Origin: a virus
Reading direction: 5' to 3' (one strand)
IMG/VR virus record: IMGVR_UViG_3300025585_000054
Span: 1 to 55,308 of that record
DNA length: 55,308 nt
Shown: positions 718 through 36,382 of the stretch, piece after piece
Layout of the letters: each line of letters starts with the position of its first letter
Position numbering within the stretch: position 1 is the first letter of the stretch
Notes under the pieces: model-generated
Database searches by the model: none
What the model saw: the letters and a program-made list of their open reading frames with translations, nothing else
What the model was told of the DNA's origin: nothing
Made by a program: the position numbers and the translations under genes

Positions 718-2172
718 TTAAACACTATCCAAATCTGCTAGAAGCATCATCAGCCTACCGATACGCCTATCTGCAATATCGCGGAAATGCCTATCGGTAT
801 CGCCATAACCAGTAGTAGCGTGATCGAGCTCATGAACAATAGTAGCCACCATATGCTCCACGCCCAAGTCCAAGGCCCTCACAGAAAGCATAATCTTTCT
901 GTCATCTGCTACCCAGACACCATGAATAGTTTCTTGATGACCACGGGGGGCAAACGGAACAAACTCAATATCATCAGAGATTGTCTCGAAACGACCCACA
1001 ACATTCAACGCCTTAGTCAGAGTGGCTTGACGAACATAGCTCAACTCATCAACAATATCAAAGTCGGCACGAGTGCCCAGAATATTGGAGACATTGAGTT
1101 CTACATCACTCGGGCTGCTGACAATAAGGCGATAGACAATATAGTTATCAACCTCACGTGCAGTTAGACCACGCATCTGAAGCTGAATGGCAAGCTCTTC
1201 CGAATAATGACCTTCGACACCGGAAGGACAAATAGGAATGCAAGTCTCACCATATTGCTCAACCCAAACCTCGGCCCAAGCAGCATCAGACTTCAAATGA
1301 TCGAAATGATACGCTGCCAGACACCACTCCACGCAGGAATCATACTCAGAGCTTTTGTCGAGGATGAAGATATCACGAATAGCATCTTTATCGCTCAAGT
1401 TACGCAAAGCATAGGATGCTACTGAATCAATCTGATAAGCATCAGAGATGCGTCGCTCCTCGTTCAGTCTAAAACCGCTGTGTTGATACGAGAAGATAGC
1501 ACAAGGATCAGCAGTATCACCAATCCAGATACCACCCTTGCCGTAAAGTTTGCCATCAGACACATGAGAAACACACTGCCTAACGGAATCCTCAATTACA
1601 TAGTTCTTGTAAAGACCAATATCCGAACCGCCAGCAGCCTTGGAAATAAAGTCAGGCTTAGCCTCGTGCTTGAAATACAAGTCATTATTATCAAAGAACT
1701 CAAGCAAATCTGGATCGGCAGAGAGATAGACATCGAAATAGCCATCTTTACGTTCAACGCTATCAACAATCTCTACGCTGTAATCTGCACCGAACTCCAA
1801 GTTAGCATCGAGAGCATTCGCAAATGCCTCACGATAAATCTGGAAATCAGTATCCCACGAGATTACACCCGCATCAAGAGAGAAAGACGAAGGGATATCA
1901 GTTACGCCTTCTTCAGTCGTGTAGCGATAGTAAACGATGTCGTAGCCGTCAACATCCTTGGTAATGTAATCCAAGCGGTAATCACCACGGTCATCGCTAC
2001 CGAGACAAATCCACTCAAAACCCTTACGAATAGCAGCAACAGGCGCCAACTTAGCACCCGAGCCAAACTGGCCTACAGTAGATTCATTATCGCGCTTAGA
2101 AGAGATACCCATCTTCTCCAAGCGAATACGCGGCACACAGTCCGCACGGTTACGGAATCGAATATAACTCAC
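718..2172 (-). CDS. GHKL-like ATPase motifs with C-terminal HExxH metallopeptidase-like domain
   Basis: A 484-residue protein started by GTG, with a GGAGG site 4-5 bases upstream. Residues 33-41 (VGQFGSGAK) resemble the glycine-rich G2/lid loop of Hsp90/gyrase-type GHKL ATPases and phage rIIA-like proteins. Residues 114-123 (REAFANALDA) look like the N-box (ExxxNxxD) that binds Mg-ATP. In classical GHKL proteins the N-box comes first, so the order looks permuted. Near the C-terminus, HELDH at 447-451, followed by a Gly-Asp-rich stretch, is a zincin HExxH motif. The middle (about 150-420) is not recognised. This is the largest gene of the small-gene block. Function is unknown; a protein-remodelling or host-takeover role is a guess. 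Confidence 0.7.
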   Translation of the reverse strand: MSYIRFRNRADCVPRIRLEKMGISSKRDNESTVGQFGSGAKLAPVAAIRKGFEWICLGSDDRGDYRLDYITKDVDGYDIVYYRYTTEEGVTDIPSSFSLDAGVISWDTDFQIYREAFANALDANLEFGADYSVEIVDSVERKDGYFDVYLSADPDLLEFFDNNDLYFKHEAKPDFISKAAGGSDIGLYKNYVIEDSVRQCVSHVSDGKLYGKGGIWIGDTADPCAIFSYQHSGFRLNEERRISDAYQIDSVASYALRNLSDKDAIRDIFILDKSSEYDSCVEWCLAAYHFDHLKSDAAWAEVWVEQYGETCIPICPSGVEGHYSEELAIQLQMRGLTAREVDNYIVYRLIVSSPSDVELNVSNILGTRADFDIVDELSYVRQATLTKALNVVGRFETISDDIEFVPFAPRGHQETIHGVWVADDRKIMLSVRALDLGVEHMVATIVHELDHATTGYGDTDRHFRDIADRRIGRLMMLLADLDSV

Positions 2173-2417
2173 TTATCCTCCTTCTCTGCTGGAACAATAA
2201 ACTCACGGGATACTACGCCAAAGAATCTGCGAGTTTTGGCGTCTTCAATATAAATACCATCTTCAACGTCATGAAATGGCCACCCAAAGGGATATGTTCT
2301 ACGCACAAGCGTAGTCTCTTGTGGATACCAAGGCTTCAAACTTCGTTTGTTTTTATAGTTAGGAATAAACCAATACAATTCTTCTGCTGGTTTCTGATTA
2401 ATCCTAATCCTAGTCAT
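2169..2417 (-). CDS. Hypothetical protein, 82 aa
   Basis: A short basic and aromatic-rich protein (many Trp, Tyr, Phe, Pro and Arg) with no recognised domain. Its ATG overlaps the stop codon of the upstream zinc-ribbon gene (TGATG), and its own end overlaps the start of the large ATPase/peptidase gene by 4 bases, so it is embedded in a translationally coupled string. The composition (FIPNYKNKRSLKPWYP) suggests a small compact beta domain, possibly nucleic-acid binding. That is inference only. Confidence 0.65.
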   Translation of the reverse strand: MTRIRINQKPAEELYWFIPNYKNKRSLKPWYPQETTLVRRTYPFGWPFHDVEDGIYIEDAKTRRFFGVVSREFIVPAEKEDK

Positions 2418-5563: not shown

Positions 5564-6154
5564 TTACAAATTCCAAGGACTACGACCGCTACCTTGATAT
5601 AAAGACCAAGCTGCTTTAATATTACATTCTGGAACAGTCCAGTCTGTGTGCCCGCACACAGCGAGAAAAATACCGCTATGCATAGGCATCATCATCTGAA
5701 ATAATCCAGATGCACCGGATGCATTTCTTGCAGTCGGGATACACCTTGATTCCCGATACGCAATAGAGATAGCCCATTCTGCATCTCTTTGCCAAATACT
5801 GCGAATCAAATCTGCGTATTGGCAGGGGCTACTACTCCGAGGCTGTTGAGCAACATTTGTCGTAGGTGTTGCTGCTCTTTGTCTTGCCAGCGTTTCCGAC
5901 CGCCTGCGTTCTTCGGCCTGCTGTGCGGCAATTCTATTCTTCTCTACTTGCGTATTCCAGAGAACCACAGCCTCTTGGTGCTCTTGGAATCTAACTCTTT
6001 GTTCTGCCCGAATTTGGTTGAATACCTTTGTGTCGTCAACCACGATACTTTCTCTGGATGCTTTCGGTGAAGCATCCGTATTACTATGTTTATCAGTGAT
6101 TCCACCGATTGATGCTGTTATAAGTAAGATTAAACTCGATAATAATATTCTCAT
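5564..6154 (-). CDS. Secreted lysozyme/transglycosylase-like protein (SLT/Rpf-like)
   Basis: A 196-residue protein. It begins with a signal-peptide-like segment (MRILLSSLILLITASIGGI) and then a long charged Gln/Glu/Arg-rich helix (about residues 48-92). The C-terminal domain (about 112-196) contains AYRESRC, in which the Glu would be the catalytic acid of lysozyme-fold transglycosylases, followed by ASGLFQM, the typical SGLFQ motif. It likely cleaves peptidoglycan during lysis or entry. AGGAG 6 bases from the ATG fixes the start. The catalytic domain is short, so it could be a virion-associated or accessory lysin rather than the main endolysin. No amidase or wall-binding domain is seen. Confidence 0.8.
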   Translation of the reverse strand: MRILLSSLILLITASIGGITDKHSNTDASPKASRESIVVDDTKVFNQIRAEQRVRFQEHQEAVVLWNTQVEKNRIAAQQAEERRRSETLARQRAATPTTNVAQQPRSSSPCQYADLIRSIWQRDAEWAISIAYRESRCIPTARNASGASGLFQMMMPMHSGIFLAVCGHTDWTVPECNIKAAWSLYQGSGRSPWNL

Positions 6155-6712: not shown

Positions 6713-7036
6713 CTAATTCATTTTTTGAGATGCGCTCATATCGCGAGTGTCTTCCAAAAATCTGGTCCGGAAAGCATTTTTCGGCTTGCCTGCCGCAAAA
6801 TATGCGCCACCCCATAGCCCTGTTTCCCCCACCGTAATCGCGTGTTGATAGCACGCCTCACGGACTTCACATGAATTACAGAACCTAATCATTTTTTCTT
6901 TGTTGGCACCATTTGATTTCTCAAACTCCTCAAAGAAGAGCTTTAAATCCTTTTTCTCCTGACGACATTTAGCGTCGTTCATCCATTCGGTGCTCACTTC
7001 CTGAAGCGCTTTCGACCGCCAATTGTTGTCTCCCAC
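6713..7036 (-). CDS. whiB-like: WhiB-family Fe-S transcriptional regulator
   Basis: A 107-residue protein with the full WhiB signature. Four cysteines at 24, 53, 56 and 62 (the last three as CNSCEVREAC) would hold a [4Fe-4S] cluster, and the G[VIL]WGG turn is present as GLWGG at 73-77, followed by a basic tail. Wbl proteins bind the sigma factor and modulate transcription in Actinobacteria. Phage copies such as TM4 WhiBTM4 can interfere with host WhiB2. The start is GTG with GGGAGG 5 bases upstream. It lies in its own segment between hairpin-rich gaps downstream of the terminase gene, suggesting independent regulation. A second Wbl gene is at 23772-24068. Confidence 0.9.
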   Translation of the reverse strand: MGDNNWRSKALQEVSTEWMNDAKCRQEKKDLKLFFEEFEKSNGANKEKMIRFCNSCEVREACYQHAITVGETGLWGGAYFAAGKPKNAFRTRFLEDTRDMSASQKMN

Positions 7037-7092: not shown

Positions 7093-7144
7093 GGTAAGGT
7101 GCGAAGCACCTTACCCCGGCGTGCGCCGCCGGTCCAATCGGACC
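7093..7144 (-). terminator. Array of three hairpins after the large terminase gene
   Basis: Three adjacent perfect inverted repeats fill the gap between the terminase stop and the WhiB gene: GGTAAGGTGC/GCACCTTACC (7093-7102 and 7106-7115, 3-base loop), CCGGCG/CGCCGG (7116-7121 and 7127-7132), and GGTCC/GGACC (7131-7135 and 7140-7144). The segment is much richer in G+C than flanking coding DNA. It may terminate terminase transcription or structure the leader of the WhiB mRNA. No U-tract is present. Confidence 0.5.
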
Positions 7145-8871
7145 TAAATCATTTCGATAAGCCAGCTTTCTAAGTCCTCGGGGATTTCCCGACGTTTGGG
7201 GGCGGGCGTTGGCGCTACCTCAGTAATTTTACTAATTGCGTCTTCGCCATCAAAAGTCTCATATTCTATACTATCTGCACCCCAAATTTCAATCTCTACA
7301 TCTTGTGTCATACCAAAATTGGTAATGCATTTGTATACCGCACCAGCTAAAGCATCCGCCTTATCTTTCTCACCTTTTGATGGGTGGTCTACTTTTGTAT
7401 TGTTGATAAGGCGTAATTTCAAAATTTCGCCCTCAATCAGCTGCTCATCCCAGTAGCCACGCAATCTTCCATCATAAATAGAAGTAGATAATGTATCATA
7501 CGCTGACTTCTTCACTGTAAATGCATCAGCATTAATTCCGTTATTCCTTAACGACTGGATCATATCGGCACTTTGCCAATAGTCGAATGTCACTGAAGCC
7601 ACATTAAACTTACGACATAATTCTACAATTGTAGTTCTCACTGCCGAGAACGGAACCTCAGAGTTAACTTCAGCCTTCCATGAGGTTATATAATCCATAT
7701 TAATAATAGGCAGGGTCTCGATGCCCGCACCCGTATTGACTTCCTTCATACCAGACATATGAACCATACATAAAGCAGCCTTGTCTCGTTTCAGACCAAG
7801 GTCTACATGAATAAATCTAGCAAAACCATCAGTACCATTGAACCACGGCTTCCAAGTCCCATCTTCTTCGGTGGGGTTATCTCCATACAAGAATGCCGAA
7901 CGTACACGATCAGGTTCACGGAAGTAGGCGTCTTCCATCTCAGGAGGCTCACATTCAAATCGTGCTCTAGCTTCCCGAGGATTTCTTACATACTCAGATT
8001 CTAAATCTTCACGAGTAATTGTTGGATTAACTTCCCAAGTTGCTTTCTTGATGCCCCAAGTCTTGGGCTCATTATTAGCAATAGCCCCATAATATCTTTC
8101 CTCGATGAAGTCGCCCTTGAATCTAGGGAAGGAAAGGAGCACAACCTTGCCAACGTCCGGAAACCTAGACATAATGGAAGCCTTACTCATCTTATAAATA
8201 GCTGAAGCTGACCCTTTCGCCCTAGCTTCGCCCTTTAGCTCAATATCTGTTTTGAAGGCGGCGATCTCATCTAATACTACTGTCATAACTTCATAGCCCT
8301 CCCATCCTTCAGATTCAGAGTGGCCGGAGAAACATCTAATTGGCCTACTAAAGAAGAAGACTTCACCTACCCTAGGCTCGAATCCAACATCATTGAAGTA
8401 TGGAGAGCGAAGAAGCAAGTTCTTAAATGGCTCGAAGAAAACCCTCTGAGCCTGCTGGGCATTCACAGCAAGGTTCAGAAGGTCGATGTAAACCCCGTGG
8501 GCTTTATTGTAGTAATCGAGCGGATCTCTGAGGCAATGAAGCAGGTACGCGATATATGCAAGGGAAATACGCGAGGTATGGTCCTTGCCACTACCCTTAC
8601 CGAGCATGGCAATAACTTCATTCACCGTATACTTATTATAAATCTCCATACCCTTTTCTTCTCCATGAATTTGGACAAGAGTATGAGGTTTATAAATCTG
8701 GGTAATATGCTTAGCAATCTCTGTCTGAACAGGAGACAGGGGAGGCAAGCCAAGATATTTTCTATCTTGAACAAATACCTCAAGAGGCACAGGCTCTTCT
8801 TCTAGCTCTTCCTTACGAAGAAGTCTATCGAAATCTTCATAGTTAAAGTTTAATCCCCAGAAATCAGTCAT
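7144..8871 (-). CDS. terL: Terminase large subunit
   Basis: A 575-residue packaging motor. The N-terminal ATPase has the Walker A motif GKGSGKD at 91-97 and a Walker B strand ending VVLDE (about residue 215). The C-terminal RNase H-fold nuclease has acidic positions in FIHVDLGLKRDKA, SVTFDYWQSADM and KADALAGAV. It translocates DNA into the capsid and cuts headful or cohesive ends. It follows the small subunit gene by 9 bases. Its position at the end of the replication block, far from the capsid and portal genes, implies a circularly permuted map in which the head genes lie beyond the right edge. Confidence 0.95.
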   Translation of the reverse strand: MTDFWGLNFNYEDFDRLLRKEELEEEPVPLEVFVQDRKYLGLPPLSPVQTEIAKHITQIYKPHTLVQIHGEEKGMEIYNKYTVNEVIAMLGKGSGKDHTSRISLAYIAYLLHCLRDPLDYYNKAHGVYIDLLNLAVNAQQAQRVFFEPFKNLLLRSPYFNDVGFEPRVGEVFFFSRPIRCFSGHSESEGWEGYEVMTVVLDEIAAFKTDIELKGEARAKGSASAIYKMSKASIMSRFPDVGKVVLLSFPRFKGDFIEERYYGAIANNEPKTWGIKKATWEVNPTITREDLESEYVRNPREARARFECEPPEMEDAYFREPDRVRSAFLYGDNPTEEDGTWKPWFNGTDGFARFIHVDLGLKRDKAALCMVHMSGMKEVNTGAGIETLPIINMDYITSWKAEVNSEVPFSAVRTTIVELCRKFNVASVTFDYWQSADMIQSLRNNGINADAFTVKKSAYDTLSTSIYDGRLRGYWDEQLIEGEILKLRLINNTKVDHPSKGEKDKADALAGAVYKCITNFGMTQDVEIEIWGADSIEYETFDGEDAISKITEVAPTPAPKRREIPEDLESWLIEMI

Positions 8872-28834: not shown

Positions 28835-29840
28835 TTATAGCCTCCTGAATAACTACCTCGTCTTCTTTATATAGAATAATAGCATTGGAACTACCACAAT
28901 CAGTAACTATCAATTGTGCTGTTGGTACGGACCCAGCAAATGGTGCATCAAGAGTAGAGAAGGCACCCCACATTTGATTTGGTGTGTAGTAAGAATCACC
29001 GGTGGATACTGTTGCACCGTTCTCTACAGTCGTATATTTTTGAGGTTGGCCCGGAAATAAAACAAAATCAGAAATATTATATCTACCAGTCATGTCATCA
29101 TTGTCAAGCAATTGATCTCCACCAAAATTAATATGATAAAGAAATTTATTTTGATCTGGTTCAAAAGTAACACTAGGTTCAGCGTTGTAGGTATTTCGCA
29201 TCTGATCCCAGATCTCTAATCGCAAGCCAGAATCAGATTTCCACATTACCTCATAAGTATGACTACCTGAACCGGGGTTGATGTCAAAACAATCAAAATA
29301 AAAAGAACTCGTAGCTAAGCTATACGAAGTAAGATTGGATGTGCCAGCCGGATCGCCGGGATCTCCGCGCGACGCCCATGTATCAACCAGAGACTCAGCA
29401 GAGATATCGATACCGTCTCGAACGAATTTGAAGCCTTGAATTGGCCATTGCGAGTTTGCTGCTGTTGTCGCGCTAGCAGCTGCATTACCATGAGCTAAGA
29501 GTGGAATATAAAGCTCTACATGAATGATTCTATTAGATTCAGTATTAACTGATACTGATAATCCGTTAGGGTTGATATTCCAGTTATCTACAACTCTAGT
29601 CCATTCTTTAATTTCATCAATATTATTTTGAGCATTAGCCCATAAAGATAATCCCGGAAATGCCTTATATCCAGTTGACTTAACATTTGCCGCATACATT
29701 GTTAATTCACTATAACCAATGATGCCCTTGGGTCTTGCTTCTAACTCGTCAGCTACAGTTTGATCATTTTGAATCATAAACTGCAGTTTCTCTAATGAAA
29801 CTGGCTCTGAATTCCACTGAACAGGAAAGTAATCTTGCAT
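28815..29840 (-). CDS. Tail appendage/minor tail protein, member 1 of a tandem family
   Basis: A 341-residue protein. Its N-terminus (FPVQWNSEPVSLEKLQFMIQ then NDQTVADELEARPKGIIGYS) defines the family motif L-x-x-L-x-x-M-x-x-N-D...PKGI. The core is a strand-rich jelly-roll-like domain with an extended C-terminus (FYFDCFDINPGSGSHTYEVM). It immediately follows the large tail-tip gene with a TAATG overlap. Probably part of the tail tip that contacts the cell envelope. Confidence 0.7.
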   Translation of the reverse strand: MQDYFPVQWNSEPVSLEKLQFMIQNDQTVADELEARPKGIIGYSELTMYAANVKSTGYKAFPGLSLWANAQNNIDEIKEWTRVVDNWNINPNGLSVSVNTESNRIIHVELYIPLLAHGNAAASATTAANSQWPIQGFKFVRDGIDISAESLVDTWASRGDPGDPAGTSNLTSYSLATSSFYFDCFDINPGSGSHTYEVMWKSDSGLRLEIWDQMRNTYNAEPSVTFEPDQNKFLYHINFGGDQLLDNDDMTGRYNISDFVLFPGQPQKYTTVENGATVSTGDSYYTPNQMWGAFSTLDAPFAGSVPTAQLIVTDCGSSNAIILYKEDEVVIQEAINADPTA

Positions 29841-32800
29841 TAGGATACCTTCCTAAGTGTCATCTTTTGCTCAATACCACCGTTATACGACATATTTATT
29901 GACATAATCCAATACTCACCATTTAAAATAGATAATCTATCAAATGTATTGATTTTTATTCTATCACCAAGCTGCAGATGAGGCAAGCCAATGGTGCTCA
30001 CTTCTAAAATTGGCACCGGCAGAGCATATTTTTGCAACAAATATTGAGCTAAATCTTTAGCATATTGAGCATCTTGAATGAGCGGATTGTCGATCTCTAG
30101 CACTTTTTCACCGTATCGACGGATATTATCCTTATAGTTTTCTGAAATTTCTACAATATTTTGTTTATTTTTCTGCTGATTAGACATAACAATACCGGCA
30201 ACACGGAAATAGTTGTCAAGTTTAGTCACAGGATTGTTGCCTTCGAGAACAACATATTTATTGGACGGAACGACACTATCTGAAGGGTAAAGTCTAATGT
30301 ATCCGTTCAGGCCATTGAATCTCCAGTTTGAAGCTACAACAGTATCGTCAAAAATAATACCGGTAATAAATGGATAACTAACAAAGTATACTGGTGAGGA
30401 CCCCCATTCTAAACTAAATTCTCGGGCTTCACCGACTTTGGCGCCAGCTACGTGACTTTGAGCAATGCTACCCCAATATCCACGTTCTAGGTCATATAAA
30501 GTATTTCCAGTACTTTTCTTATATCTAATGAATTCGTTATCTATCTTTACAATTCCGCTATCAGGCCAGAGCGGTTCATATATACCTGCTGGATTTAAAG
30601 TAAGCGATAGTGAGATAGAATCAGTAGATGTAGCACTTAAATTAGAGGCCAACGTACATATAGCTAATGACGTATTGCCTTCTGCCGCCCAAATACCTGT
30701 TTTTGCAATCGTTGTAGAAAGTGGTGGATAAACTTTTACTATGACTTTGTTAACTTGCAATTCTACCGTTTGAGAACCAGAAACTATAGCGGCAGTTGAA
30801 TCTGTAGCGCCGCCATACTGCCCATATGAGGAAGTACCCGCTACTGGATAAAGACCTGGGTATGTCCTGAGTCCTCCGGTAATACCATATGTCACGCTTG
30901 ACCCAATAGAAATTAAATTACCATCATTAATTTCATACTGGACATCGGAGTGTTGCGAGTCTATAACGTCGTCATATGATCTACCATGCTCGTACACAAA
31001 ATTGTCATTTTCATCAAAATAGAACATTCCAATATCTGCAGTTGCAATCTTTAACATCTCGGCCCAGTAAGAATCCCCAGCGGCACCAATACTGCTGTAT
31101 ACATACTGGTAAAGGCTGATGCCACGTTTGTAGTGATTTAAAACTGTAGATAAATTTAGTTCATAGTTATAGATAGCTATATTAGAAATAGATCCTATTA
31201 AAGCATTAGATGTGGTTAAACCATGTCCGCCAATAATAGTTTTAACATAATTCTCTACAAGCGCAGCAATAGCTGTTGCCCATGTGTACTGAGCATACGC
31301 TGCTCCATTAACATAGATGGTTAATATATAATTGCTTCCCAAAACTTTTACTGTCGTTGCAACATGATACCAAGTATTTGATGTCAGCGTAGATCGTAAA
31401 CCAGTAGGTATAATGCTATATGGAGGATTATTATCAAAACGATAAATTTCAAATTTTAAGACGCCATCTGAATCTAGAAATATTCTCCACGTACCGCCTG
31501 TCACTGTTGATCCAAAGTTTTCTCTTGAAAAGAGATATTGTTTATGCGATACGTTACTGGACTTAAACCAAAACTCTACAGTGAACGAATTAAGGATGTC
31601 GGCCCGCATCGGACAGTCATCCATGTGATTAATATAACCCAAATTTTTGACAGTTGATGTTGTATTATTTAAAGTAATAGATTTTTCTATTTCTGAAGAA
31701 ATGGGGCTGCCAGTATTGTAAGTAATATAATTAGAAACATCTTTTTCATCGTAATTTGGCGATGCCCCCAGACGTAAAGATGCATAGTGATTACCTGCAT
31801 GATCTTTGAGTGCCATTGCCCCTGTTGAATACCACATGGCTTGACTTAGAGGTGAATTGCTAGTATTGGAAGTATAAGCAAATAAATAATTACCTTCTTT
31901 TGTTACATTCGGAACAATATTTTCTTTTCTTCTTCCAGATGCAGTATATGCATAGCCATCTTGACTTAAATCTTCGTAGGCATAAAATTTACCTTGATTT
32001 AAAGGCCAATGGCATAATAATCTACCCGTATTTTCATAAGAAACATTTTGATCATCGTAACCAGCTTTAATGTAATGTTTATATATAGACTCAATTGATA
32101 AAGCTCTTTTGTAAATAGCTACATGTGCTAAAACAGAGTTTAAGTTAGCTGGAGTAGATGGGGTATTCCCGATACGAAGTGTGGCATCTAAGTTAGATAA
32201 GGCATAAGCGCCCGTAGCAAGGAAAGTTTGATTAGAAGCTTGACCGTTAACAAAGATTTGAAGTCTGGCTCCGGATGCCACGATCACGATGTGCGACCAT
32301 TGTGATAATGAAATGGCATTATTGCTAGTTAAAGTGGTTATTACCGCTGCGCTAGTATTTAGAACATCAAACTGTATTTTTAAATCTGTAGTTAAATATG
32401 CTGCCCATTCTTGATTCAGTCCCGTAGATTCGAACTTAGAGACAATGCAACGCCGAGCTAAAGGGGCAGCCAGTGGTTTAATCCAAAACTCCAAACTGAA
32501 ATTAGCTTCAGTGCTTAACGAGCTTGAAAAAAGACTAAAATCATATTGCGATGCTACTGGGTTAGTTGCATTGAGAGTACTTGACGTTCCTTCAAAGGGG
32601 GTGATCGTAGTATTAGAGACATTAATAACTCCAGTAGAGTTGAAGTGCAAAGCCCTACTACTGTCTTCATTCTTAATGGGACCTTCGTAAGATGTAATGC
32701 CGGTCCCCGCCTGCGTTCCATTGCGGTCAAAGCCGGAAATGTCTCGAATAAAAGTGCCATTATGTAAGCTAGAATTTCTGATATCTAATGGCCAATAACC

Positions 32801-35800
32801 ACAAGGATTGTCCGATAAAATCAAATTTTTATAGACATAGTTACTATAAGCATTAATTTTTTGTTGATTAAATGGTTTATTCATACCATCTATAATTTGA
32901 GCTTGCGTTCGCGTCGTGGCCCAAATTTTAATTTCTCGTAAATGACCAATAAAAATAGAAGATGTTTTATTTAATGTATGTGGCCCCGTTGCGACATTAG
33001 ATGCAATACCACCAGCATTAAAGCCAGCTCCAATGAGCATCTGCCCAGAAGGCCTAAACGGCTGAAAGGTGAAGCCAGCTAACTGCGCTGCGACACCTGT
33101 GCTGCCATCAATATAATATTGAACTCCAACTCCGCTACCGGCACTGCTAAGAGCGGGATCGACTACAATAGCAATATGATGCCAGATATTATCATCAATA
33201 GCACTATCCGAGAAAAAGCCGGTGCTTGCATCGGATGGCTCAGCCTGTCCGGGTGCGAAGTTTTGAATCTTAGTTACAAGTCTTCCGTCGCTACCAATGC
33301 TAACTCTAAATTCATTTGCAAATCTTTTAGTAGCATAGTTTAAAATTGTCTTGTTGCGAGCATCTGATCCGCATTTAATCCAGAACTCTACAGTACACTC
33401 AGATGCAGGAAAGTCGTAGAATGTTCTGGGGAGCACTTTCTTCGACGCAACAGTGGTATTCTTCTGCGTACCCGAAACGGACCCGTCCCCAGCACCACCT
33501 GCCCAGAGATCACCAAATGGGTGGCTATACAGGTAAGTAGAGCCGTTAAAATATAGGCTTTTTTGCTGCATCGACGTTTCATTTAGGCGCCAAAAAACGG
33601 CTGGTTTGTCTGCGAGTACTGTACTGACATAGTTTTTGTCTATATCTAACTTAGATAAGGGGACACCAGAGCGTAGAGCTAAATCGCTGATAGCCTCGCT
33701 TGCAGTTATATCTGAAGCTAAATAGCCATCAACCACAGTAGCATCTTGCATTTTAGCACTAAAGTCACGACAGGAGACTGATACAGTCATGTTATCACTG
33801 TCTATAGACCAATTATCGGAATAAAAATATCCTTGATCTAATAATTCAATGCCGGATGATGTGTGGTAATTATATCCGATCTTAAATTTTATTCCTGGCG
33901 TAATGGTTCCGTAGTATGAACTACCGGTGTTATCTGGGTTTAACTCAAGATCAGTATTATCCAGTACTATATTGCATGTATTTGCACCGGTTGCGCCCAA
34001 TGGCACAGAAGAATCAAAATTTTCTCTGTTCTTAGAGATTTCTAGACTAACTACTCTTGCGGAAATATCTTCTATCCACCTAGGAGCGAACTCCTGAACT
34101 CTAGCTACGTCATAAGGATATAGTGTGGAGTTAATTGTTAACTCTATAGCATCGATATGTTTAGTTTGTCCGATACTATATATATAGCTAGAGTTACTTA
34201 AGTTAAAGTTTACTGATGTCCAAGTCCCAGTATCAGCGTCTCGGAATCTAAAGCTTCCTGCCTTAATACGACCATATTTAGTCGAGGAATATAAATCTAT
34301 ATAGTTAGCATAGATAGGATCAAATGATAAGTATATTTTTTGAGGCACGGTAAAATTACCTGATGCGTCAGATTTAACTTTAGACCACCAACCATACTCA
34401 TAATCGGTAAAAGCTAAAGTCTCTTCTCGCTCGGAAACATAATAATTTCCATTGGCTGTTATTACATCTCCATTTTCATCTAAGGCATCGAGAACAGCCC
34501 AAGTAATAGTATGTTCATCTTGACCGTTTATTACTTGAAGAGGGTCATAAAACTTATTAACACCTTTAAAGTTATTTGCACTTACCACTGATTGATAAGC
34601 TGTAGACCATGCGGTCAAATCAGCGTTTACATTAGATATTGATAATTCTGAAATGTAACATTTACTTAAACCTTCATTTGACTGCCTACCTCCAATAAAG
34701 AGTTTCCATTGACTATTAGTATTCATCGTTGGAGTCGCAGTAACACTAGTGGCGACAGTAGACGTATTACCGTTGATCATTATAACGGCATTATTTAATG
34801 AGTTTACAGAAAAAACAAAATGCACCCATTGATTACGTGGAATATTATTAAAAGTAACAGGCTGAACTACTGTTCCATTGTAGATAGAACCGCTAAGATC
34901 GACGGCCCCATTGGTTTGCCTTCTGAGGGTGACGTACCAGCTTCCATTTGATGTTGTCGCAGTGGTATGAAACTCCCCGCTGGGGGTTCCGAGTGCAGCT
35001 ATCATTTCGATGCTCTCGGTGCTCACTACCTTATCTTCAACATAGATCCATCCAGCCACCGTAACCTTAGCTGTACCATCGAAGACCGGAGTTCCAGTCG
35101 CTGAATTATCTGAAGTTAAATATTGATAATTGATAATTGATGTACCATTATTAAAATAATAACTAGCTGAGTCTTTGCGTCCGATGAATGGCGTCCCCAA
35201 AGCACCATTGATTTGAGGGCGGAAGTCAATACCCGCAAAAGCAGTCGGCGTACCACTAGGATTGTAGATAAATGGATTTCTGCCTTTACCGGAGTAATCT
35301 TTAACGTGAGCATGATTATAACCGGGGGACCTCAAGGCTGTGCCGATATTTAATGACCCGGTTCTCCAGCGTTGTTTAATATCTTCTAAATTGAGAGCAT
35401 TGTTGTAAATAGCAATTTCATCAATATTGCCAATAAATTTAGTATTAATGCTAGTGTCTATCCCGGGAACTGCCGTCCAATCAAAATAACGTGCGCCAAC
35501 ATATAAAGAACCGGATGTAGTATCCATAAGAGTGCCATTTAAGACATTGTTTGATCCGACTAATTGATTATTAACGTATAAAGATAAAGTCTTGCCATCA
35601 AATACAGCTACAATATGATACCACTGATTCACTACTAAGCTATTGGGTGATTTAACATCCACATATACATTTGATCTATTTTCTAATGGTTTCCAATATC
35701 CTGTATTGCTATTATATATAATAAACTTAGGATTGCCAGAATCTAAGTTTAATGTCCATTCTGGAATGCTTGATGACAATTGAATTTCGCCAGTTTCCAC

Positions 35801-36382
35801 CGAGCGTAAATAGCCTTTAGAATCTTTATATATAATAAAATTGCCATCTACCATATTAATAGTAGTTGGTTTAATCCAGCACTCAACAGAAAAAGAAGGA
35901 TTGTCAATAATCGACCATCTATTTTGAGTATCTTTCTGTGAGGAAACAGCATATCCAGCATTGCCCGGCATATATAAGCTAGTAGATAAATTGCCAGCAT
36001 TGTCTTGCACTACACCTGTCTGGCCGAACGTGAAGTCTGTACCCGAAACTCCCTTAACGTAGAGATTATTATATCCAGATTCATCTTGCACAGAATAAAT
36101 ATTTGATGATACTGCTAATGTATTAGCAGCATTATTCATTCTCCAGTGTGTAACCGGTTTTGGTCCGGTATACATACCATCAATGACATCAAATGATTCA
36201 TTAAACCGTGTATAAAAAACTGGATTTTGTTGAGTAATAAATGTCACATAATCGTCTGACGATGAGTAAGCTTTTACATTAGTCAATGAGCGACCATTGA
36301 CCCACTCCGCTTCTACAGAGGGCTCAACTACTTGAGCACTATTTTTTAAGGTTGTATCCAATGAAGCCGTAATATTCTGCAT
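29840..36382 (-). CDS. Giant tail-tip protein with five LamG-like domains
   Basis: A 2,180-residue protein. Concanavalin-like (LamG) domains recur about five times: around residues 150-345, 430-600, 935-1170, 1190-1430 and 1440-1745. Each has a signature such as FSVECWIKP, then W-Y/x-H-I/V-x-x-V, N/DG-Q, and a final I-x-x-I-A-I-Y-N-x-x-L. Between them (about 610-900) is a region with the hub-like sequence CNIVLDNTDLELNPD and YFYSDNWSIDSDNMTVSVSC, typical of tail hub or baseplate proteins. A final about 430 residues resemble a gp27/hub-like segment. The domains probably bind glycans on the host surface. AAGGAG precedes the ATG. Confidence 0.85.
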   Translation of the reverse strand: MQNITASLDTTLKNSAQVVEPSVEAEWVNGRSLTNVKAYSSSDDYVTFITQQNPVFYTRFNESFDVIDGMYTGPKPVTHWRMNNAANTLAVSSNIYSVQDESGYNNLYVKGVSGTDFTFGQTGVVQDNAGNLSTSLYMPGNAGYAVSSQKDTQNRWSIIDNPSFSVECWIKPTTINMVDGNFIIYKDSKGYLRSVETGEIQLSSSIPEWTLNLDSGNPKFIIYNSNTGYWKPLENRSNVYVDVKSPNSLVVNQWYHIVAVFDGKTLSLYVNNQLVGSNNVLNGTLMDTTSGSLYVGARYFDWTAVPGIDTSINTKFIGNIDEIAIYNNALNLEDIKQRWRTGSLNIGTALRSPGYNHAHVKDYSGKGRNPFIYNPSGTPTAFAGIDFRPQINGALGTPFIGRKDSASYYFNNGTSIINYQYLTSDNSATGTPVFDGTAKVTVAGWIYVEDKVVSTESIEMIAALGTPSGEFHTTATTSNGSWYVTLRRQTNGAVDLSGSIYNGTVVQPVTFNNIPRNQWVHFVFSVNSLNNAVIMINGNTSTVATSVTATPTMNTNSQWKLFIGGRQSNEGLSKCYISELSISNVNADLTAWSTAYQSVVSANNFKGVNKFYDPLQVINGQDEHTITWAVLDALDENGDVITANGNYYVSEREETLAFTDYEYGWWSKVKSDASGNFTVPQKIYLSFDPIYANYIDLYSSTKYGRIKAGSFRFRDADTGTWTSVNFNLSNSSYIYSIGQTKHIDAIELTINSTLYPYDVARVQEFAPRWIEDISARVVSLEISKNRENFDSSVPLGATGANTCNIVLDNTDLELNPDNTGSSYYGTITPGIKFKIGYNYHTSSGIELLDQGYFYSDNWSIDSDNMTVSVSCRDFSAKMQDATVVDGYLASDITASEAISDLALRSGVPLSKLDIDKNYVSTVLADKPAVFWRLNETSMQQKSLYFNGSTYLYSHPFGDLWAGGAGDGSVSGTQKNTTVASKKVLPRTFYDFPASECTVEFWIKCGSDARNKTILNYATKRFANEFRVSIGSDGRLVTKIQNFAPGQAEPSDASTGFFSDSAIDDNIWHHIAIVVDPALSSAGSGVGVQYYIDGSTGVAAQLAGFTFQPFRPSGQMLIGAGFNAGGIASNVATGPHTLNKTSSIFIGHLREIKIWATTRTQAQIIDGMNKPFNQQKINAYSNYVYKNLILSDNPCGYWPLDIRNSSLHNGTFIRDISGFDRNGTQAGTGITSYEGPIKNEDSSRALHFNSTGVINVSNTTITPFEGTSSTLNATNPVASQYDFSLFSSSLSTEANFSLEFWIKPLAAPLARRCIVSKFESTGLNQEWAAYLTTDLKIQFDVLNTSAAVITTLTSNNAISLSQWSHIVIVASGARLQIFVNGQASNQTFLATGAYALSNLDATLRIGNTPSTPANLNSVLAHVAIYKRALSIESIYKHYIKAGYDDQNVSYENTGRLLCHWPLNQGKFYAYEDLSQDGYAYTASGRRKENIVPNVTKEGNYLFAYTSNTSNSPLSQAMWYSTGAMALKDHAGNHYASLRLGASPNYDEKDVSNYITYNTGSPISSEIEKSITLNNTTSTVKNLGYINHMDDCPMRADILNSFTVEFWFKSSNVSHKQYLFSRENFGSTVTGGTWRIFLDSDGVLKFEIYRFDNNPPYSIIPTGLRSTLTSNTWYHVATTVKVLGSNYILTIYVNGAAYAQYTWATAIAALVENYVKTIIGGHGLTTSNALIGSISNIAIYNYELNLSTVLNHYKRGISLYQYVYSSIGAAGDSYWAEMLKIATADIGMFYFDENDNFVYEHGRSYDDVIDSQHSDVQYEINDGNLISIGSSVTYGITGGLRTYPGLYPVAGTSSYGQYGGATDSTAAIVSGSQTVELQVNKVIVKVYPPLSTTIAKTGIWAAEGNTSLAICTLASNLSATSTDSISLSLTLNPAGIYEPLWPDSGIVKIDNEFIRYKKSTGNTLYDLERGYWGSIAQSHVAGAKVGEAREFSLEWGSSPVYFVSYPFITGIIFDDTVVASNWRFNGLNGYIRLYPSDSVVPSNKYVVLEGNNPVTKLDNYFRVAGIVMSNQQKNKQNIVEISENYKDNIRRYGEKVLEIDNPLIQDAQYAKDLAQYLLQKYALPVPILEVSTIGLPHLQLGDRIKINTFDRLSILNGEYWIMSINMSYNGGIEQKMTLRKVS

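Follow-up and report, generated by a model that had tools for sequence, protein, structure and literature searches.

Few nucleotide machines have been studied as thoroughly as the GHKL ATPases, which include Hsp90, gyrase, MutL, MORC and the histidine kinases; to our knowledge all GHKL ATPases keep one order of motifs along the chain, N-G1-G2. Zincins in general have an HExxH motif, and in the minigluzincin, WLM and SprT families the third metal ligand is a His or a Glu. Among phage proteins, the rIIA orthologues have been described in a survey of jumbo phages as a GHKL domain joined to a variable C-terminal domain (PMC7824862); the family described here, phrog_8203/6077, is not discussed in the accessible parts of that survey.

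The protein that forms the subject of this analysis is encoded on a 55,308-bp virus record, the whole of which is referred to below as the window. Its closest sequence matches are in rIIA of T4 and relatives, over the lid and G2 box (STK..n.iGgFGlGsKSp) and the N-box (REl.tNm.DaH), but unlike rIIA the family has a rotated order of elements (G1-lid-G2-sheet-N-box), an Asn in place of the G1 Asp and a minigluzincin-like C-terminal domain, and no rIIB was seen next to the gene. Hsp90, HtpG and TRAP1 are the top matches among solved structures and share with the family the N-box Glu and Asn, the G2 box and a candidate middle-domain Arg; they differ in that the ATPase domain of the family appears permuted and a zincin-like domain replaces the Hsp90 C-terminal domain. 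The likeness to MORC-type ATPases resides in the lid and G2 profile, which matches 'fGkSaKr..e.tqIGqyGnGlKs' of MORC2, whereas the motif order is different and neither a CW nor another MORC domain was found in the family protein. At the C-terminus the fold and the HExxH helix resemble those of the minigluzincins abylysin and selecase and of Wss1/Spartan, from which, as from WLM and SprT proteins, the family departs in having an Asp as candidate third ligand (D458 or D468), in carrying mostly EExxH and in being fused to an ATPase. One member, XAI96925.1 of Synechococcus phage Ssp-JY42, which is of the EExxH type, was deposited as 'HATPase', so that the ATPase relationship is recognised in the record, while the permutation and the C-terminal domain are not noted there.

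The gene, its family and its surroundings

The gene lies where a previous sequence-only reading had placed it, on the minus strand, and the coordinates of its features and of neighbouring genes are compiled in Table 1. The open reading frame extends from a GTG codon (2172-2170) to a stop codon (718-720), and its start is well supported because a Shine-Dalgarno sequence precedes it and because the GTG overlaps the stop codon of the upstream gene as GTGA.

Table 1. Features of the gene, of its predicted product and of neighbouring genes in the window.
Feature	Residues	Position	Strand	Support and remarks
CDS, predicted permuted ATPase with zincin-like domain	484 aa	718..2172	minus	ORF and start, family of 64, models
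Shine-Dalgarno AAGGAGGA		2176..2183	minus	AAGGAGG at 2183-2177; strong
G1-box equivalent YIRFRNRA	3-10	2143..2166	minus	first strand and N8; hhalign to rIIA strand 'RDFGPGMS'
Lid and G2 box GISSKRDNESTVGQFGSGAK	22-41	2050..2109	minus	profile match to HtpG 124-200, MORC2, rIIA
N-box helix (REAFANALD 114-122)	109-127	1792..1848	minus	HtpG 51-64 (2ior numbering), rIIA 39-67; helix in model
YQHSGFRLNEER, with invariant E238 and R240	229-240	1453..1488	minus	64/64
Minigluzincin/SprT-WLM-like domain	379-478	739..1038	minus	Foldseek and profile
HELDH	447-451	820..834	minus	HE[LY]DH in 10/10 of the window's clade
D458, candidate third metal ligand	458	799..801	minus	invariant in C-terminal alignment; both site types
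D468, alternative third-ligand candidate	468	769..771	minus	acidic residue only in HExDH clade
Upstream ORF	82 aa	2169..2417	minus	overlaps ATPase start codon; related ORFs in L014, L020
Very hydrophobic membrane protein	42 aa	589..717	minus	start immediately after ATPase stop codon
Conserved protein, function unknown	102 aa	273..581	minus	near gene in L009, L010, L011, L014, L016, L019
SLT transglycosylase		5564-6154	minus	co-oriented
WhiB transcription factor		6713-7036	minus	Pfam E 1.9e-11
Terminase large subunit		7144-8871	minus	co-oriented with ATPase gene
Tape measure protein	2555 aa	36807-44474	minus	matches tape measure families

With the window protein alone as the query, no relative was detected among the viral contigs, NCBIfam gave no match, phmmer against the PDB returned a chance match only, and Pfam returned only sub-threshold matches to DUF4284 and WLM, with none to HATPase_c_3 or to the HSP90 family (PF00183). 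Two PHROGs groups match the protein, 8203 (E 5e-10) and 6077 (E 5e-8), both of unknown function. Two uncultured large phages supplied a first alignment, from which 40 viral contigs with members were found; cultured phages of Stenotrophomonas, Synechococcus and Brevundimonas also carry homologues, one of these phages being Stenotrophomonas phage Sonora, and so do 25 bacterial contigs assigned to Planctomycetota, Bacteroidota, Pseudomonadota and other groups, whereas plasmids searched with a homologue gave no match. The phrog_8203/phrog_6077 family occurs in many phages and prophages. The family alignment, with members from phages and bacterial contigs, comprises 64 sequences, all of which are identical at G34, G37, G39, W106, R114, E115, N119, D122, E238, R240 and E282; members of the window's own clade are only about 30-35% identical to it.

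The window protein matched no model of a known anti-phage defence system in PADLOC, and the role in defence or anti-defence that the sequence-only reading had envisaged is without direct support. Its relatives gave only weak matches to TmtA, which we take to be the Tiamat defence ATPase, to DrmB and to candidate systems. The TmtA match that was inspected (E 0.0013) covers 24 residues of a 1486-position model and falls on the glycine box only, for which reason neither the TmtA nor the DrmB matches were accepted as evidence on the family.

The genes around the ATPase gene in the window are co-oriented, and the presence of a WhiB gene suggests that the host of the phage is actinobacterial. Within the window's clade the ATPase gene is part of a block of small genes extending from the terminase to the end of the record, and recombination genes are not adjacent to it. 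The tiny membrane gene reported beside it by the sequence-only reading is indeed present, and similar hydrophobic ORFs of 42-46 aa lie directly downstream in L009, L010 and L016; none was seen in that position in L012-L015, L017 or L019. The conserved 102-aa protein encoded next in the window had no match in Pfam. Genes near family members encode, among other products, Erf-like annealing proteins, exonucleases of the RecE-like and other kinds, and DNA primases. In the bacterial contigs the family gene is often near phage recombination and replication genes, and these contigs are suggested to be prophages because they hold what, from reading of the sequences, we take to be NinB, SSB, Sak4-like and integrase genes. 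Four contigs have a further SprT-like gene, its HELVH motif intact, upstream of the family gene, at a distance of 61-95 nt in three of them (L032, L036 and L039) and of about 1.8 kb in L040. In all four, the family member beside this gene has EExxH as its own site.

Order of the GHKL-like motifs

The motif positions named in the sequence-only reading were confirmed as VGQFGSGAK at residues 33-41, REAFANALD at 114-122 and HELDH at 447-451. These are not chance motifs, given the invariance of the glycine and N-box residues in the 64 sequences, the presence of HE[LY]DH throughout the window's clade and the outcome of the shuffles described below. The three glycines G34, G37 and G39 form a G2 box of the GxxGxG type that matches those of HtpG, MORC2 and rIIA, and E115, N119 and D122 form an N-box of the ExxxNxxD type. 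At the G1 box, on the other hand, the DxGxG motif with its adenine-contacting Asp is not present: the position of this Asp is taken by N8, an Asn in 52 of the 57 rows reaching it, and the Asn is followed by xG in most members and by xA in the window. Hsp90 no longer binds ATP when this Asp is changed to Asn, and for this reason binding of ATP by the family cannot be assumed. A nucleotide of one kind or another is probably still bound and hydrolysed, because E115 and N119 are invariant. The codon of residue 8 occupies 2149-2151 (minus strand), and the family-wide Asn raises a question of nucleotide specificity. Further along the chain, the segment at residues 229-240 is a candidate equivalent of the stretch holding the catalytic Arg of the Hsp90 middle domain (LPLNxSRE); the equivalence of R240 remains a suggestion because the middle region did not match rIIA and HtpG significantly at the profile level.

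Along the chain the motifs follow the order G1-G2-N and not the standard order, the counterparts of the N-box helix in HtpG and rIIA standing upstream of their G boxes. When a profile of residues 1-130 was compared with the PDB using HMMER, HtpG was matched in two out-of-order stretches, profile positions 15-92 with HtpG 124-200 (lid and G2) and positions 101-114 (REiycNalDe) with HtpG 51-64 (N-box), and MORC2 was matched over the lid and G2. Profile-profile comparison with hhalign, for which a nine-member rIIA and a six-member HtpG alignment were used, likewise gave two separate pieces for undoubled rIIA (E 3.8e-7 and 3.9e-6; 48.7 and 42.8 bits) and the same two pieces for HtpG, and in column shuffles (150 per fragment, rIIA and HtpG) 0/150 reached the observed score. 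Homology to rIIA over its full length was not found, since only two motif regions align and these are out of order; the rIIA-rIIB gene order was also not found. When the rIIA ATPase domain was doubled, the window-anchored family profile aligned with it in a single stretch, with window residues 3-135 matching 57-244 across the junction at 196 (E 6.4e-10), and the score of 70.9 bits compares with 20.8 bits for the best shuffle; the profile of either subclade alone gave no spanning alignment, only the two out-of-order pieces. Doubled HtpG gave the same arrangement more weakly (E 1.5e-5). These alignments to doubled domains suggest a chain in which the G1 strand comes first and the N-box helix last.

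Models were predicted with AlphaFold2 for the window protein (mean pLDDT 85.9) and for the EExxH member L025 (mean pLDDT 92.8), and in both the order of the elements matches the rotated arrangement. Foldseek placed Hsp90 first for the window model (E 7.7e-5) and for the L025 model (E 1.1e-7), the latter with 37 chains below 1e-3, all of them Hsp90, TRAP1 or HtpG, and a search of viral folds found KVP40 RIIA (E 9e-4). By these Hsp90 matches, obtained in sequential comparison, the α/β sandwich of GHKL proteins is recognised in both predicted models. Over the full length, TM-scores to Hsp90 are only 0.15-0.26; low values are expected when a permuted domain is compared sequentially, although this is not proof of permutation. 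Structure prediction, which the sequence-only reading had proposed as a check, bore it out in that both models match Hsp90 and minigluzincins in Foldseek, and its picture of a GHKL-like part in reversed order joined to a zincin-like part is supported by profiles and predicted structures alike. On the profiles and the order of the elements, circular permutation is the best explanation for the reversed motif order. A search of the literature for a permuted GHKL, HATPase or Bergerat domain, which may miss a paper available by subscription, returned nothing relevant.

The C-terminal zincin-like domain

The C-termini of both models were matched by Foldseek to selecase and abylysin with a probability of 0.98-1.00, the range with jannalysin included being mostly 0.96-1.00, and by these matches the predicted models have a zincin fold of the minigluzincin/WLM/SprT kind. 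The profile of this region found selecase, Wss1, abylysin and Spartan weakly (E 0.007-0.2), and six and five family members gave weak matches to the Pfam SprT-like and WLM families, respectively.

The peptidase half of the two-domain reading is nevertheless the less secure one, as two types of site occur on this fold. HELDH of the window protein lies within a helix of the model (residues 438-454), and the count of ten for its clade refers to those members that reach the site; outside the clade an HExxH helix is not found. Among the 53 other members, 46 have the site EExxH..D..Q (one with R for H), and in these rows Asp458 is present, Arg461 is found in 44/46 and Gln464 in 46/46; the pattern used for the search required EE..H/R and the D, so that only Gln464 and Arg461 are independent of it, and alignments made free of the pattern agree with the site type. 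In the remaining seven there is no site: the jumbo-phage member L002 has lost it, and L007, L008 and L069-L072 are without the domain or the motif. The HExDH and EExxH..D..Q sites are thus mutually exclusive and each conserved. Of the two residues whose conservation was to decide the matter for HELDH in the sequence-only reading, Glu448 is kept wherever the site exists, and His447 is kept only in the window's clade. The coupling of ATP to proteolysis that the same reading had put forward is limited at most to this clade, since His447 is confined there, and it fails for the rest of the family, where the site is replaced or lost; with 46/53 EExxH and seven without a site, peptidase activity cannot be the function common to the family.

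When a tree was built from the N-terminal half, a branch with SH-aLRT 100 separated the HExxH members from the rest, so that one switch of site suffices, and the HExDH form may be the older of the two because zincins generally carry HExxH. The EExxH form was also considered as a decaying pseudo-enzyme, an interpretation that was rejected because even very distant members keep its residues and the Gln after them without change; the model of L025 still has the fold.

Proposed mechanism and alternatives

The reading that we prefer, and consider rather probable, is that the protein is a permuted GHKL ATPase of the Hsp90/rIIA branch joined to a minigluzincin/WLM-like domain, working as a clamp and acting as a peptidase in the window's clade, a function that we infer from sequence, models and analogy. 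The predicted chain would start with the G1 strand, continue with the lid, the G2 box and the sheet and only then reach the N-box helix, after which come a middle region with the invariant Arg and the C-terminal domain. If the protein works like Hsp90, MutL and MORC, N119 and the glycine boxes would bind Mg-ATP, and its hydrolysis with the help of E115 would close a dimer clamp, while R240 of the middle region would sense the γ-phosphate. As the clamp closes, the C-terminal domain would shift relative to a substrate or have the substrate presented to it. In the window's clade this domain, with HExDH and D458 or D468, is on sequence and model probably a working zinc peptidase that would cut what is presented; in the rest of the family the same fold with its EExxH..D..Q site probably binds a partner or another metal. 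Since recombination and replication genes are frequent neighbours of the gene, the substrate is likely to be either a nucleoprotein or a host protein sitting on phage DNA.

The C-terminal domain might instead be a zincin-derived binding module that is non-catalytic even in the window's clade, leaving the protein as an ATP-driven remodeller or chaperone only. The Glu in place of His447 in most other members with the fold kept, the six members without domain or motif and the lost site of the jumbo phage all point in this direction, but HExDH together with Asp468 is kept in 10/10 sequences of a diverged clade, and since an intact site of this kind is hard to explain without a function we regard such a module as unlikely, if credible. 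The standing of rIIA as the best profile match and the appearance of KVP40 RIIA in the fold search bring to mind a membrane-associated protein that, like rIIA, counters prophage exclusion or other defences, perhaps together with the tiny membrane protein, as a hydrophobic ORF of 42-46 aa follows the gene in four clade members. The domain order is nevertheless unlike that of rIIA and no rIIB partner was seen, other clade members (L012-L015, L017, L019) have no such ORF directly downstream, other clades sit with recombination and replication genes, and the window protein has no defence-related match; a role of this kind seems to us rather doubtful.

Neighbouring annealase, exonuclease and primase genes would also suit a counterpart of Wss1/SPRTN in phages, in which ATP would gate a protease that removes proteins bound or crosslinked to phage DNA during its replication. 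The C-terminal profile has few relatives of solved structure, and Wss1 and Spartan belong to them; the SprT-like and WLM families of Pfam weakly match some members, and four contigs hold the separate SprT-like HELVH gene upstream. Such a counterpart is improbable, however, given that the catalytic His is absent in most members, that no DNA-binding segment was identified and that the window's clade lies outside recombination modules. Convergence of short motifs on some other fold would account for the failure of the Pfam HATPase and Hsp90 families to match the window protein and for the missing G1 Asp, but the two models match Hsp90 with E-values down to 1e-7, shuffles never reached the observed scores, and rIIA and HtpG independently give the same two pieces, so that convergence is very improbable.

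Taking the preferred reading of a clamp-like permuted ATPase further, we are evenly divided on the broader claim that the family is a natural circularly permuted GHKL (Bergerat) ATPase, undescribed in the literature searched and spread across phages and prophages of several phyla, whose zincin fold switched once between HExDH (with an extra Asp) and EExxH..D..Q, so that one chassis would serve either proteolysis or another metal- or partner-dependent activity. If true, a widespread permuted GHKL domain would mean that the fold tolerates rotation and would offer a natural test for the parts of the ATP cycle that require a particular chain order. A large phage family of unknown function gains testable residues, and its two site types would allow peptidase and non-peptidase forms to be compared on one chassis.

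In two relatives, L010 and L016, a long extension, absent from the window protein, follows the HEYDH domain. Elsewhere in the window, a 2180-aa protein is encoded at 29840-36382 (minus strand), close to the tape measure gene.
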